Shown here one piece after another: positions 29,749 to 41,579 of a DNA stretch of 64,000 bases. The number at the start of each line of letters is the position of its first letter. Position 1 is the stretch's first letter. Position numbers and translations under genes: made by a program. The notes under the pieces were generated by a model that had not been told where the DNA came from, made no database searches, and was given only the letters and a program-made list of their open reading frames with translations. Source of the stretch: Streptomyces sp. NRRL WC-3605 (GTDB lineage: Bacteria; Actinomycetota; Actinomycetes; Streptomycetales; Streptomycetaceae); the NCBI RefSeq assembly GCF_001509795.1, contig NZ_LLZN01000035.1, positions 62,001 to 126,000 of the forward strand, in the 5' to 3' direction.

Positions 29749-31284
29749 GTGTCGGCCAGCACATCCCGTACGCTCCCGCCGGAGATCGCCGAGTCCGTCT
29801 CTGTCATGGCTCTCATCGAGCGGGGAAAGGCTGAGGGGCAGATCGCCGGCGACGATGTGCGTCGGGCCTTCGAAGCTGACCAGATTCCGGCCACTCAGTG
29901 GAAGAACGTACTGCGCAGCCTCAACCAGATCCTCGAGGAAGAGGGTGTGACGCTGATGGTCAGTGCCGCGGAGCCCAAGCGCACCCGAAAGAGCGTCGCA
30001 GCGAAGAGTCCGGCCAAGCGCACCGCCACCAAGACGGTCGCGGCGAAGACGGTGACCGCCAAGAAGGCCACCGCCACCGCCACGCCCGCGGCGCCCTCCG
30101 CGGAACCCGCCGTCGAGGAGGAGGCCCCGGCGAAGAAGGCGGCCGCAAAGAAGACGACGGCCAAGAAGGCCGCGGCGAAGAAGACGACCGCCGCCACCAA
30201 GAAGACGGCGGCCAAGAAGACCTCCGGCAAGAAGGACGACGCCGAGCTCGCCGAGGACGAGGTCATCGAGGAGGCGAAGCCCGGCGAGGAGCCCGAGGGC
30301 ACCGAGAACGCCGGTTTCGTGCTCTCCGACGAGGACGAGGACGACGCGCCCGCGCAGCAGGTCGCCGCGGCCGGCGCCACCGCCGACCCCGTCAAGGACT
30401 ACCTGAAGCAGATCGGCAAGGTCCCCCTGCTCAACGCCGAGCAGGAGGTCGAACTCGCCAAGCGCATCGAGGCGGGCCTGTTCGCCGAGGACAAGCTGGC
30501 CAACGCCGACAAGCTGGCCCCCAAGCTCAAGCGCGAGCTGGAGATCATCGCCGAGGACGGCCGCCGCGCCAAGAACCACCTTCTGGAGGCCAACCTCCGT
30601 CTGGTGGTCTCCCTGGCCAAGCGCTACACCGGCCGCGGCATGCTCTTCCTGGACCTGATCCAGGAAGGCAACCTCGGTCTGATCCGCGCGGTCGAGAAGT
30701 TCGACTACACCAAGGGCTACAAGTTCTCCACCTACGCCACCTGGTGGATCCGTCAGGCGATCACCCGCGCCATGGCCGACCAGGCCCGCACCATCCGTAT
30801 CCCGGTGCACATGGTCGAGGTCATCAACAAGCTCGCGCGCGTGCAGCGCCAGATGCTCCAGGACCTGGGCCGCGAGCCCACCCCGGAGGAGCTGGCCAAG
30901 GAGCTCGACATGACCCCGGAGAAGGTCATCGAGGTCCAGAAGTACGGCCGCGAGCCCATCTCGCTGCACACCCCGCTGGGCGAGGACGGCGACAGCGAGT
31001 TCGGTGACCTCATCGAGGACTCCGAGGCCGTCGTCCCGGCCGACGCGGTCAGCTTCACGCTCCTGCAGGAGCAGCTGCACTCCGTGCTCGACACCCTGTC
31101 CGAGCGTGAGGCCGGCGTCGTCTCCATGCGCTTCGGTCTCACCGACGGGCAGCCGAAGACCCTCGACGAGATCGGCAAGGTCTACGGCGTGACGCGTGAG
31201 CGCATCCGCCAGATCGAGTCGAAGACGATGTCGAAGCTGCGGCACCCGTCGCGCTCGCAGGTCCTGCGCGACTACCTCGACTAG
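29749..31284 (+). CDS. hrdB: RNA polymerase principal sigma factor HrdB
   Basis: The 511-residue protein is the essential vegetative sigma-70. Residues 1-75 (MSASTSRTLPPEIAESV...) are region 1.1-like, followed by a long Lys/Ala-rich, then acidic, disordered stretch (80-205) typical of HrdB. Region 1.2 is DPVKDYLKQIGKVPLL, region 2 includes NLRLVVSLAKRYTGRGM and YKFSTYATWWIRQAITRA, and region 4 ends GVTRERIRQIESKTMSKL. GTG 29749 follows GAGAGG and gives the known length. The last codons (LRDYLD) and first stop base form the left repeat of an integrated element; the stop is now TAG supplied by the element. Confidence 0.98.
   Translation: MSASTSRTLPPEIAESVSVMALIERGKAEGQIAGDDVRRAFEADQIPATQWKNVLRSLNQILEEEGVTLMVSAAEPKRTRKSVAAKSPAKRTATKTVAAKTVTAKKATATATPAAPSAEPAVEEEAPAKKAAAKKTTAKKAAAKKTTAATKKTAAKKTSGKKDDAELAEDEVIEEAKPGEEPEGTENAGFVLSDEDEDDAPAQQVAAAGATADPVKDYLKQIGKVPLLNAEQEVELAKRIEAGLFAEDKLANADKLAPKLKRELEIIAEDGRRAKNHLLEANLRLVVSLAKRYTGRGMLFLDLIQEGNLGLIRAVEKFDYTKGYKFSTYATWWIRQAITRAMADQARTIRIPVHMVEVINKLARVQRQMLQDLGREPTPEELAKELDMTPEKVIEVQKYGREPISLHTPLGEDGDSEFGDLIEDSEAVVPADAVSFTLLQEQLHSVLDTLSEREAGVVSMRFGLTDGQPKTLDEIGKVYGVTRERIRQIESKTMSKLRHPSRSQVLRDYLD
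31264..31282 (+). repeat. attL core within hrdB
   Basis: CTGCGCGACTACCTCGACT, encoding LRDYLD plus the first base of the stop codon. An exact copy lies at 41561-41579. The junction makes a 12-bp palindrome TCGACTAGTCGA (31277-31288). Confidence 0.9.
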
Positions 31285-31299
31285 TCGACAGCACTGATC

Positions 31300-31339
31300 A
31301 AGGCCCTGGCCTGCGCTTCTCGCGTAGGTCGGGGCCTTT
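31300..31339 (+). terminator. Element-supplied terminator for hrdB
   Basis: Stem AAGGCCC / GGGCCTT, extended by weaker inner pairing and followed by TTTG, 16 bases after the TAG stop. It replaces the native terminator that now lies beyond the right end of the element. Confidence 0.65.
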
Positions 31340-31345
31340 GTCGTC

Positions 31346-31358
31346 GGGCACAGCGCTC
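31346..31358 (+). repeat. Left copy of 13-bp subterminal repeat
   Basis: GGGCACAGCGCTC occurs here and at 41499-41511, near both ends of the element and in the same orientation. It could be an arm-type integrase site. Confidence 0.5.
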
Positions 31359-31399
31359 CCGGTCAAGGTATCGACACACGGAACGTAAGGTCTGGCGGC

Positions 31400-40010: not shown

Positions 40011-40223
40011 ATGGACATGCAGACCTACCGGGACGGCCGGAAGGCGGCCACGGACGCGGCGGAGGCCATCCGGGCCGCCCTGGTCGAACTCGGGCTACCG
40101 GAACGCGTATGGAGCAGCGTGCGCCCGATGGTGACCCACAGCGGTAAGCCGTACGTGCACCTGGGCATGATGCGTGCCGACGCCGTCGAGAAGATCGCCG
40201 AAGCCATCCGAGCCGGCGAATAG
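40011..40223 (+). CDS. Small hypothetical protein
   Basis: A 70-residue protein (MDMQTYRDGRKAATDAAEAI...) with two helical parts around PYVHLGMMRADAVEKIAEA. A GTG at 40005 overlapping the upstream stop, or ATG 40017, are alternative starts. It is probably cotranscribed with the gene before it. No domain was recognised. Confidence 0.55.
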   Translation: MDMQTYRDGRKAATDAAEAIRAALVELGLPERVWSSVRPMVTHSGKPYVHLGMMRADAVEKIAEAIRAGE

Positions 40224-40287
40224 GGCCCGCGCCCAACTCCTCCGCGATGAAGCCCGATTGTCAGTACCTGGTGCGACAATCAGTCGT

Positions 40288-41112
40288 ATGCCTGATGCGC
40301 TGCGCTCCCTGGACGACATGCTGACCAATCCGAACGGCATGTCAGATGATGAGGTTCAACGCCTTCGTTGCGAGAAGGTGCTCGGCACAACTGCGGTCCT
40401 CCTCCATCAGGATGGAGACGCCAAGGCCGCTGAGCTGGCCATCATGCTCGCTGAGGTTGTGACGCTGGAGCTGGAGTACAGCGAAACGGACTGGGGCGTG
40501 GAGTACTACGAGGCGTACCTGGAAGTGGAGCCTCATCTTGTCCCGCAGTTCACTCAGGACGATCTCGGCCGGATCGAGGGATCGATGCGGGCTGCGACGC
40601 GCAAGGACAAGTTCACGATCAAGGAACTCTACGTGCGCCCGATCCTCCCAAGTGTGGGAGCGGACTGGCGGCAGCAACTCAAGGCGGCTAACGGGCCGCA
40701 TCCCACGAACCAGGCTCGACGTGTGCGTGTAGAGCCGCAGCACCCGGTAGAGGACGGGCTCCACTTCACGAATGTGTGGGAGCACAACGTGTACCAGGTC
40801 CTGAAAGAGCATCAGGCCCGACTGCCGGAGCACGAAACCATCGGGATCGTGCCCCTTGCGGCGGTGCGAGTGCCCCGGCACACCTTCGAACCCGACTTCT
40901 TGATCACCTACAAGGGCCGCGCGGGGGTGATCGAAGTGGACGGCCCCCACCACGAGGGCCCCAAGCGAGCCTCCAATGATCACAGCCGAACTGATCTGCT
41001 GATCAACGCCGGGGTCGAGTGGGTCGCTCGTCTGGACGTGCGCGACACGACGCAGAAGGCAGAGGTCGAGAGGTTCGTCAGCAACTTCCTGGCACGCCTC
41101 ACCCGGCGGTAG
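40288..41112 (+). CDS. Putative PD-(D/E)XK-type nuclease (DUF559/Vsr-like C-terminus)
   Basis: A 274-residue protein. The C-terminal 100 residues read HTFEPDFLITYKGRAGVIEVDG, HHEGPKRASNDHSRTDLLINAG, matching the endonuclease fold of DUF559/Vsr-like proteins, with Asp203, Glu216 and Asp218 as candidate active residues and His/Arg after them. The N-terminal part (1-130) is helical and charged, with no match recognised; it may give target or phage recognition. ATG 40288 follows weakly spaced purines. Near the right end of the element and unlinked to replication, it looks like cargo, possibly anti-phage. Activity is not demonstrated. Confidence 0.65.
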   Translation: MPDALRSLDDMLTNPNGMSDDEVQRLRCEKVLGTTAVLLHQDGDAKAAELAIMLAEVVTLELEYSETDWGVEYYEAYLEVEPHLVPQFTQDDLGRIEGSMRAATRKDKFTIKELYVRPILPSVGADWRQQLKAANGPHPTNQARRVRVEPQHPVEDGLHFTNVWEHNVYQVLKEHQARLPEHETIGIVPLAAVRVPRHTFEPDFLITYKGRAGVIEVDGPHHEGPKRASNDHSRTDLLINAGVEWVARLDVRDTTQKAEVERFVSNFLARLTRR

Positions 41113-41287
41113 CCGTTCGCTCGCGTGCTTCCTGGGCGTTGATGACGCGCCGCATGAGGGCGTCCGCCCAGGTGCGCCGCTCGCTTCCTTCGGGGGCCTG
41201 CCACTTCATGGAGGGCAGGATGTCGGCCAGGGTGGCCAGGTCGTCTTGATCCATTTCGGCAATGGATACGGAGAGGTCGAGTGCCAT
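41099..41287 (-). CDS. Small conserved acidic protein
   Basis: A 62-residue protein (MALDLSVSIAEMDQDDLATL...) with WADALMRRVINAQEARE. AGAGGGTGATCAAA precedes ATG 41287. It overlaps the nuclease gene by 14 bases, tail to tail. It could be a regulator or control partner, but no family was recognised. Confidence 0.6.
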   Translation of the reverse strand: MALDLSVSIAEMDQDDLATLADILPSMKWQAPEGSERRTWADALMRRVINAQEARERTATAG

Positions 41288-41560
41288 TTTGATCACCCTC
41301 TTGGTTGGGCTTTGCCTCTCGACGCTACGCCTCCACACCCCCTCTGACCAGGGGTTTTGACGCAAACCTCGCGGGTAGCTTGTGCCCGTCGCAAGGGCTG
41401 TCCGGGGCTTGCGTGACCGGGACGGGAACGGGACCGTCGGATGTCTGGCGGTACTGAGGTTTGACCGGCCGACGCGACCAGTAGTAGAAGGTAGTGCAGG
41501 GCACAGCGCTCGATGCTGGCCAGTGTTTTCGCAGGTGGGCACACCGCTCAGCGGCTCATA
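41288..41560. other. Right-end non-coding region of the element
   Basis: No gene is seen. It contains the second 13-bp subterminal repeat (41499-41511) and should hold the arm and core binding sites of the integrase next to attR. Confidence 0.5.
41499..41511 (+). repeat. Right copy of 13-bp subterminal repeat
   Basis: GGGCACAGCGCTC, identical to 31346-31358. It lies 49 bases inside the right core repeat; the left copy lies 63 bases inside its core. Confidence 0.5.
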
Positions 41561-41579
41561 CTGCGCGACTACCTCGACT
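41561..41579 (+). repeat. attR core
   Basis: Exact copy of the hrdB 3'-end sequence CTGCGCGACTACCTCGACT, followed by GA, so the uninterrupted gene would end with TGA. Confidence 0.9.

Follow-up and report, generated by a model that had tools for sequence, protein, structure and literature searches.

What has inserted directly behind hrdB, the essential gene for the principal sigma factor, in Streptomyces sp. NRRL WC-3605, and how has the gene kept its reading frame? In a 64-kb stretch of contig NZ_LLZN01000035.1 (positions 62,001 to 126,000; the window), the end of hrdB recurs 10.3 kb downstream, and the intervening DNA carries a capsid gene. We read this DNA as a phage satellite, placed in the last codons of hrdB by its own tyrosine integrase through recombination between an attachment site on the element (attP) and one in the gene (attB), a reading to which we give a probability of roughly 0.75. 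Its two parts differ in strength: integration at hrdB is as firmly established as sequence can make it, and the identification as a phage satellite is likely but indirect.

The attachment core and the empty site

The repeat, CTGCGCGACTACCTCGACT, is exact over 19 bp, with copies 10,297 bp apart (Table 1) and no third copy in the window when three mismatches are allowed (0.04 matches expected from shuffles). An earlier note on this DNA had reported the repeat and described it as the 19 bases before the hrdB stop codon; the repeat holds exactly, and what it comprises is the final 18 coding bases (LRDYLD) together with the base that opens the hrdB stop codon. That codon is completed as TAG behind the left copy and as TGA behind the right, and the hrdB frame is uninterrupted over 533 aa from its predicted start to the TAG at 31282-31284.

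The flanks of the element were joined into a 380-bp query (200 + 180 bp) and aligned to 60 relatives. The alignment runs continuously over the joint in 18 of them, and the query splits into two separate pieces in the window's own genome. For the remaining 42, alignment of the hrdB part stops at, shortly past or before the joint, because the DNA behind hrdB diverges. In 29 relative loci the hrdB end is followed by a stop and, judged by eye, mostly by a G+C-rich hairpin; the right core is therefore host sequence, and the stop and hairpin behind the left copy arrived with the element. Given the uninterrupted joint in 18 of 60 relatives, we regard the empty hrdB site as real. The earlier note had staked its proposal on related strains having the site followed directly by the hairpin that stands behind the right core, and both the joint and that hairpin bear it out. 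The site pattern was detected in 382 of 392 Streptomyces genomes. Sixteen genomes with two same-strand copies were re-examined: the copies are near each other in genome G388, 203 kb apart in G012 and on separate contigs in 14, and apart from G388 we take these, as a class and not case by case, for sigma paralogues or broken contigs.

Both hairpin regions fold far more strongly than shuffled sequence, including the left one, which was absent from the earlier account and is the predicted replacement of the hrdB terminator. Across 21 aligned sites out of 29, the 15-pair stem of the element-type hairpin is 95% paired, 9 of the 15 pairs are altered on both sides, and none of 500 shuffles attains any of five covariation measures; shifting the partner by one base lowers pairing to 54%. 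The eight rows left out comprise a near copy (L068), two dropped before alignment (L069, L072) and five that are not collinear (L010, L011, L012, L065, L083), and of these L065 and L083 each fold into a strong hairpin. A terminator scan gave no excess over shuffles, one of its six sites belonging to the left hairpin, and a sigma-70 promoter scan found nothing.

Core plus element-type hairpin was also searched as a pattern in 315 Streptomyces genomes, a pattern that misses variants such as the window's own. It was found in six, one occupied and five with no close integrase behind hrdB (L110, L111, L113, L114, L115), and one of the five, G066, retains a 24-residue integrase fragment. These five look like genomes that have lost their elements, the evidence in G047 and G198 being the hairpin alone.

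The docking module in integrase relatives and phages

The integrase, which the earlier note had seen beside the left copy, is a complete frame beginning 115 bp past the left stop codon. Residues R148, K173, H241, R244, W267 and Y276, which we take to be the catalytic positions, are invariant in an alignment of 27 sequences and make up the R-K-H-R-H/W-Y set of tyrosine recombinases. As is characteristic of elements moved by such enzymes, the core is a direct repeat, the site is empty in relatives, the target gene is intact, and the core in attP is flanked by arm-type repeats, putatively bound by the integrase.

These repeats share the motif GCAYVVCG, which on the window's + strand has a background frequency of 0.0012 per base. 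Behind the core it stands at +63 in 17 of 29 sites, at +62/+64 in three and at +74/+75, about one helical turn beyond +63, in four. Before the core of phage attP it stands at -23/-24 in 9 of 13 cases and at -61 in 5 of 13 (L063, L064, L066-L068, close to one another in sequence), and in attR at -23/-24 in 8 of 12 examined. The window element has all three repeats, at -61 and -23 in attR and at +63 in attL, and its ends, if circularised, would reproduce the attP layout of the phage contigs. In L011, L012, L055 and L056 the left and right cores are not identical, their differences falling at base 1 and from roughly position 12 onward, and from these few natural core pairs we infer a crossover within TGCGCGACTA.

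Integrase matches at E <= 1e-80 occur in 4 of 392 Streptomyces genomes, directly behind hrdB in all four. GTDB contigs yielded 17 integrase loci, eight behind the principal sigma gene, in Streptomyces (4), Saccharomonospora, Pedococcus and two metagenome-assembled genomes (Micromonosporaceae, Actinomycetales); one, the S. griseorubiginosus contig L003, is also among the four Streptomyces genome matches and is counted in both collections. Among 396 phylum genomes, six gave seven matches, three behind the sigma gene and four elsewhere. All these counts are lower bounds, only a few best candidates per genome having been scored. The earlier expectation that this integrase normally sits at hrdB thus stands within Streptomyces (4/4) and fails phylum-wide (3/7 matches, 8/17 loci).

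A clade confined to hrdB was considered and rejected, as relatives adjoin various other genes, named by eye as apparent ffh, ribE, glycerophosphodiesterase, response regulators, acyl-CoA synthetase and others; nor do the hrdB-site integrases form one clade in the tree. Since relatives occupy other genes, we conclude from these placements that the integrase clade retargets. Members at other genes include L103, L106, L108, L013, L014 and L008, and in the first three the core resembles ACTACCTSGA (YLD or YLE codons); such cores elsewhere hint at the origin of new targets.

The same arrangement is found on phages. Streptomyces phage Kromp (MH744420.1) carries GTGCGCGACTATCTCGACTGA and a hairpin just before its integrase, that is, the final codons of hrdB, a stop and a hairpin, with a core identical to that of the element at 17 of 19 positions. 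Its integrase is 64% identical, and its attP lies 104 bp from the aligned and 77 bp from the annotated integrase start. Kromp is a complete phage; its annotated genes include those for terminase, head, tail and endolysin besides an integrase and an immunity repressor, and on this annotation we call it temperate. It is the only DNA match of the element among 50,697 phage records, through the integrase gene and the DUF6879/XRE-DUF5753 pair, the latter (38018-39411; L023 7260-8658) at 66.5% DNA identity.

Scanning viral contigs twice for the integrase brought up 34 distinct loci. Twelve of them, and Kromp as a thirteenth, carry an attP, and no hrdB was found upstream of it; five have a chromosomal hrdB end and one an attR-like copy only. 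No site was seen in 16, ten of which start less than 100 bp from the integrase, and the six with longer flanks may use other sites. One of the five hrdB-end loci has 35,169 bp between two cores (L074/G426), with capsid and protease above the Pfam cut-off and a weak large-terminase (TerL) match, consistent with a full-size prophage at the same site. The integrase of the 35-kb sigma-gene prophage is apparently split over two frames near its start (L100 216-1102). Mycobacteriophage Pumpkin, with a 44% identical integrase, has no hrdB-like core in the 4.9 kb around it.

We read the element as sharing its docking module with phages, and Kromp-like phages, which carry the same kind of module, are candidate helpers or module donors. 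The empty sites, the integrase position in relatives, the attP on phage DNA and the arm repeats together support the proposal of the earlier note that the element integrated at the 3' end of hrdB without breaking its frame.

Gene content and the nature of the element

The left part of the element is organised as in phage-inducible chromosomal islands (PICIs), with an integrase, an AlpA-like regulator and a replication-type gene near one end, in the order int-p80-AlpA-p62-AAA, and, as in capsid-forming PICIs, it encodes its own major capsid protein (Table 1).

Table 1. Features of the hrdB locus and the inserted element, in window coordinates (aa, amino acids; att offsets are relative to the core)
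Feature	Position	Strand	Evidence or remark
hrdB, principal sigma factor gene, attB within last codons	29683..31284	+	NCBIfam RNA polymerase sigma factor models, best E 4.6e-253
attL core, 19 bp	31264..31282	+	exact repeat search
Element-borne hairpin behind left core, predicted replacement of hrdB terminator	31300..31338	+	folding z -6.7
Right arm-type repeat GGGCACAGCGCT, offset +63	31346..31357	+	motif scan
Tyrosine integrase, 297 aa	31400..32293	+	PF00589 E 1.9e-27
80-aa protein travelling with integrase	32349..32591	+	phrog_2842, function unknown; homologues in 12/17 integrase loci
AlpA-like helix-turn-helix protein, probable excisionase	32878..33081	+	PF12728, phrog_66, TIGR01764
62-aa protein, kept in sister element	33127..33315	+	76% identity in L098
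AAA ATPase (AAA_25), probable replication helicase, RepA-like	33312..34652	+	PF13481 E 2e-20
103-aa protein ahead of capsid gene	34962..35273	+	78-80% identity in L004, L098
HK97-type major capsid protein, 389 aa	35571..36740	+	PF05065 E 1.9e-25; phrog_10 E 1.8e-31; TIGR01554 E 2.3e-24
XRE-type regulator with DUF5753	38018..38878	-	Pfam, PHROGs; DNA homologue in Kromp
DUF6879 protein	38881..39411	-	PF21806 E 2e-59; DNA homologue in Kromp
95-aa protein kept in sister elements	39721..40008	+	68% in L098; 54% over 63 residues in L004
312-aa protein, no known function	40174..41112	+	50% homologue in L098
Small right-end protein	41108..41287	-	74% over 54 residues in L098
Left arm-type repeat GGGCACAGCGCT, offset -61	41499..41510	+	motif scan
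Left arm-type repeat GGGCACACCGCT, offset -23	41537..41548	+	motif scan
attR core, 19 bp, then TGA (host stop)	41561..41579	+	exact repeat search; joined-flank alignment
Original hrdB terminator-like hairpin	41595..41638	+	folding z -4.2; joined-flank alignment

Family scans covered ten element proteins with Pfam and PHROGs and nine with NCBIfam, leaving out small open reading frames at 36.8-38.0 kb and 41.1 kb. They recognised no protease, portal, connectors or terminases, bar weaker matches of the AlpA-like protein to the small-terminase (TerS) families phrog_57 and phrog_309, and we do not apply the name capsid-forming PICI, since the matches lack most of the head genes that define such islands. 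The 312-aa protein matched nothing in Pfam, PHROG, NCBIfam or PADLOC, and PADLOC gave no match for seven window proteins. Homologues of the 80-aa protein (one at L024 3021-3260) lie mostly just behind an integrase and include gp55 of mycobacteriophage Pumpkin; the Kromp stretch yielded none, and neither did 10 of the 12 viral contigs with an attP, some being cut off early. The protein may be an integration partner.

The capsid protein matched 78 phage records, and none of these matches spans 80% of it; among the 12 listed, about half is covered at less than 40% identity. Among 120 listed of its 283 relatives, names are actinobacterial apart from a soil metagenome, and at E <= 1e-50 it was found only in the window's genome and G097 among the 392 Streptomyces genomes. 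A search of viral contigs with the single sequence returned nothing, and an alignment search returned four loci.

Eleven elements at the site could be bounded: 10,297 bp (window), 10,270 (L004), 10,305 (G089), 10,753 (G388), 10,429 (L012), 9,602 (L083), 9,521 (L011), 10,855 (G656), 7,225 (L007), 12,157 (L099) and 35,169 (L074), eight of them at 9.5-10.9 kb. Within these eight, of which part of the open reading frames were scanned, a capsid gene is above the Pfam cut-off in six, L011 having a weak match below it and L012 none in the proteins tested; a replication-type gene (AAA_25, Prim-Pol or D5/primase) is likewise present in six, with a topoisomerase-family match in L011 and none found in L083. 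The latter has capsid, portal, protease and TerL, and so holds part of the head-gene set of capsid-forming PICIs. The 12.2-kb element (L099 4515-16696) encodes GntR, DUF1648 and HTTM proteins, with no capsid gene among five proteins tested. In G656, a stretch that looks like a sequencing adapter is followed by N close behind the right core (L119), which may point to an assembly error.

The gene order xis-p62-(AAA)-p103-capsid-XRE-DUF6879-p95-p312 is largely shared by a sister element in G097 (L098 6510-17474), whose integrase is a different one and whose repeat is 23 bp long. The sister element sits within an apparent DNA ligase gene, near the start, and unlike the hrdB element it may cut its target. 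XRE and DUF6879 are the most conserved part of the backbone (92-94% identical). Ratios of nonsynonymous to synonymous substitution (dN/dS) are 0.08-0.44 against G097 for the nine genes with usable alignments, and 0.15-0.54 against L004 for integrase, xis, p103, capsid and p95. A value of 1.4 for the 312-aa protein against G097 was set aside as an alignment artefact, and a flagged stop in the G097 homologue, at aligned residue 9, probably lies upstream of the start. Given the recurring gene order and these ratios, the backbone seems to be maintained and able to change its docking module.

The same observations bear on whether the element is instead a decaying prophage, what remained after a full phage had integrated at hrdB and deletion had removed all but the integrase, some early genes and a single capsid gene. 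The proteins scanned include no recognisable portal, large terminase, tail or lysis protein, the 35.2-kb record with a core at both ends resembles a full-size prophage at this very site, and the five of 315 genomes with a hairpin and no close integrase, one with an integrase fragment, suggest that decay may occur. We nevertheless think a remnant unlikely: 8 of 11 bounded elements cluster at 9.5-10.9 kb, the gene order is found again in G097 under a different integrase and at a different site (the AAA position excepted), and dN/dS against G097 is 0.08-0.44 for the nine genes. Much less probable still is a mobilisable or conjugative element akin to the actinomycete integrative and conjugative elements, bearing a phage gene as cargo; the AAA/replication gene, the XRE regulator, the small size and the capsid-less L099 element with its GntR regulator fit this, and it is opposed by the lack of an FtsK-like transfer gene among the proteins scanned (ten by Pfam, nine by NCBIfam) and by the capsid gene in six of eight similar-size elements. 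A stable island with an inert integrase, inherited vertically at hrdB, would suit the low occupancy and the integrase at hrdB in all four Streptomyces cases, and is hardly credible given that phage contigs bear an attP and integrases of this clade and that several other genes serve as targets.

Several observations weigh against a phage satellite placed by its own integrase. It is a case made from sequence, in which excision, circle, particle and transfer are predictions. The arm motif was defined after the sequences had been seen and was not found in 5 of 29 sites, and three of the eight rows omitted from the covariation analysis (L010, L011, L012) gave no hairpin on folding. No portal, protease, large terminase, connector, tail or lysis gene was recognised in the scanned proteins, no Streptomyces phage is among the 78 capsid-matching records, and TerL_ATPase (PF03354) finds no match in the window's genome, which therefore has no resident helper with a terminase of that type. 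The 540-aa frame at the AAA position in G097 matches only over its first 78 residues, dN/dS against L004 reaches 0.76 for XRE and 1.0 for DUF6879 at 34-36% protein identity, and the dN/dS of the capsid gene is only moderate (0.35-0.44). Finally, the link to Kromp rests on the integrase, the att site and the DUF6879/XRE pair.

For the satellite that we favour, the tyrosine integrase would recombine attP of the element with attB in hrdB and, with the AlpA-like protein, excise it again, and the AAA protein would replicate it. Its capsid protein would form the particle, with portal, terminase and tail supplied by a helper phage, and the borrowed codons, stop and hairpin would keep the sigma factor intact and the hrdB transcript terminated. 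A bolder and distinctly speculative extension, which we would not expect to hold in full, is that the hrdB end is a docking bay shared across Actinobacteria and contested by temperate phages and capsid satellites; the satellite would occupy the site of its helper and could be mobilised by the helper integrase in trans, its one head gene would be a replacement capsid building a small head around the helper portal and terminase, and each guest would rewrite the 3' end and terminator of the sigma transcript.

Comparison with known systems

The earlier note knew of no described element with this site. A search of open-licence PubMed Central papers for an attachment site in hrdB, sigA or rpoD, for related islands and for Kromp found none either, and a description elsewhere is possible. 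The site is near-universal in Streptomyces and serves both phages and satellite-like elements, which makes it a ready test system for satellite-helper competition and, with the predicted attP, a candidate integration vector site, as well as a case of mobile elements repeatedly rebuilding the 3' end of a master sigma factor gene.

One close likeness is to Kromp, in integrase, core with stop and hairpin, and DUF6879/XRE pair. Kromp differs in its 58-kb size, in its terminase, head, tail and lysis genes, and in a capsid that does not match that of the element; its annotation, in the stretches covered, names no att site, and integration at hrdB is our prediction for it. The mycobacterial prophage-like elements phiRv1 and phiRv2, about 10 kb with integrase, capsid and protease genes, may be comparable.

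Capsid-forming PICIs have genes for capsid, protease, portal, connectors, TerS, TerL and HNH and a mean length of 14 kb (PMC10690885, PMC10803314). The window element resembles them as a small element with integrase, AlpA-like protein, replication-type gene and own capsid gene, and with no tail gene recognised, but differs in having the capsid protein as its only recognised head component and in its length of 10.3 kb. With the phage-inducible chromosomal minimalist islands and the islands in fis it shares Int, AlpA, a replication gene and a fixed protein-gene target (PMC10803314, PMC10111431), and unlike these it targets hrdB and has a capsid gene. The Streptomyces satellites MulchRoom and MiniFlayer are described as carrying genes for terminase, portal, capsid and scaffold, as lacking an obvious replicase and as using virulent helpers (PMC10690885); host genus and capsid gene are common ground. 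The element has no phage-record DNA match beyond Kromp, in a collection not checked for these two satellites.

The fate of the target gene has a parallel in the E. coli icd elements, whose attP holds a replacement piece of icd such that the gene stays functional (PMC10111431). The attP of the window element would likewise restore the end of its target, but in another gene and another host phylum, and with a replacement that extends to the stop codon and a terminator-like hairpin.

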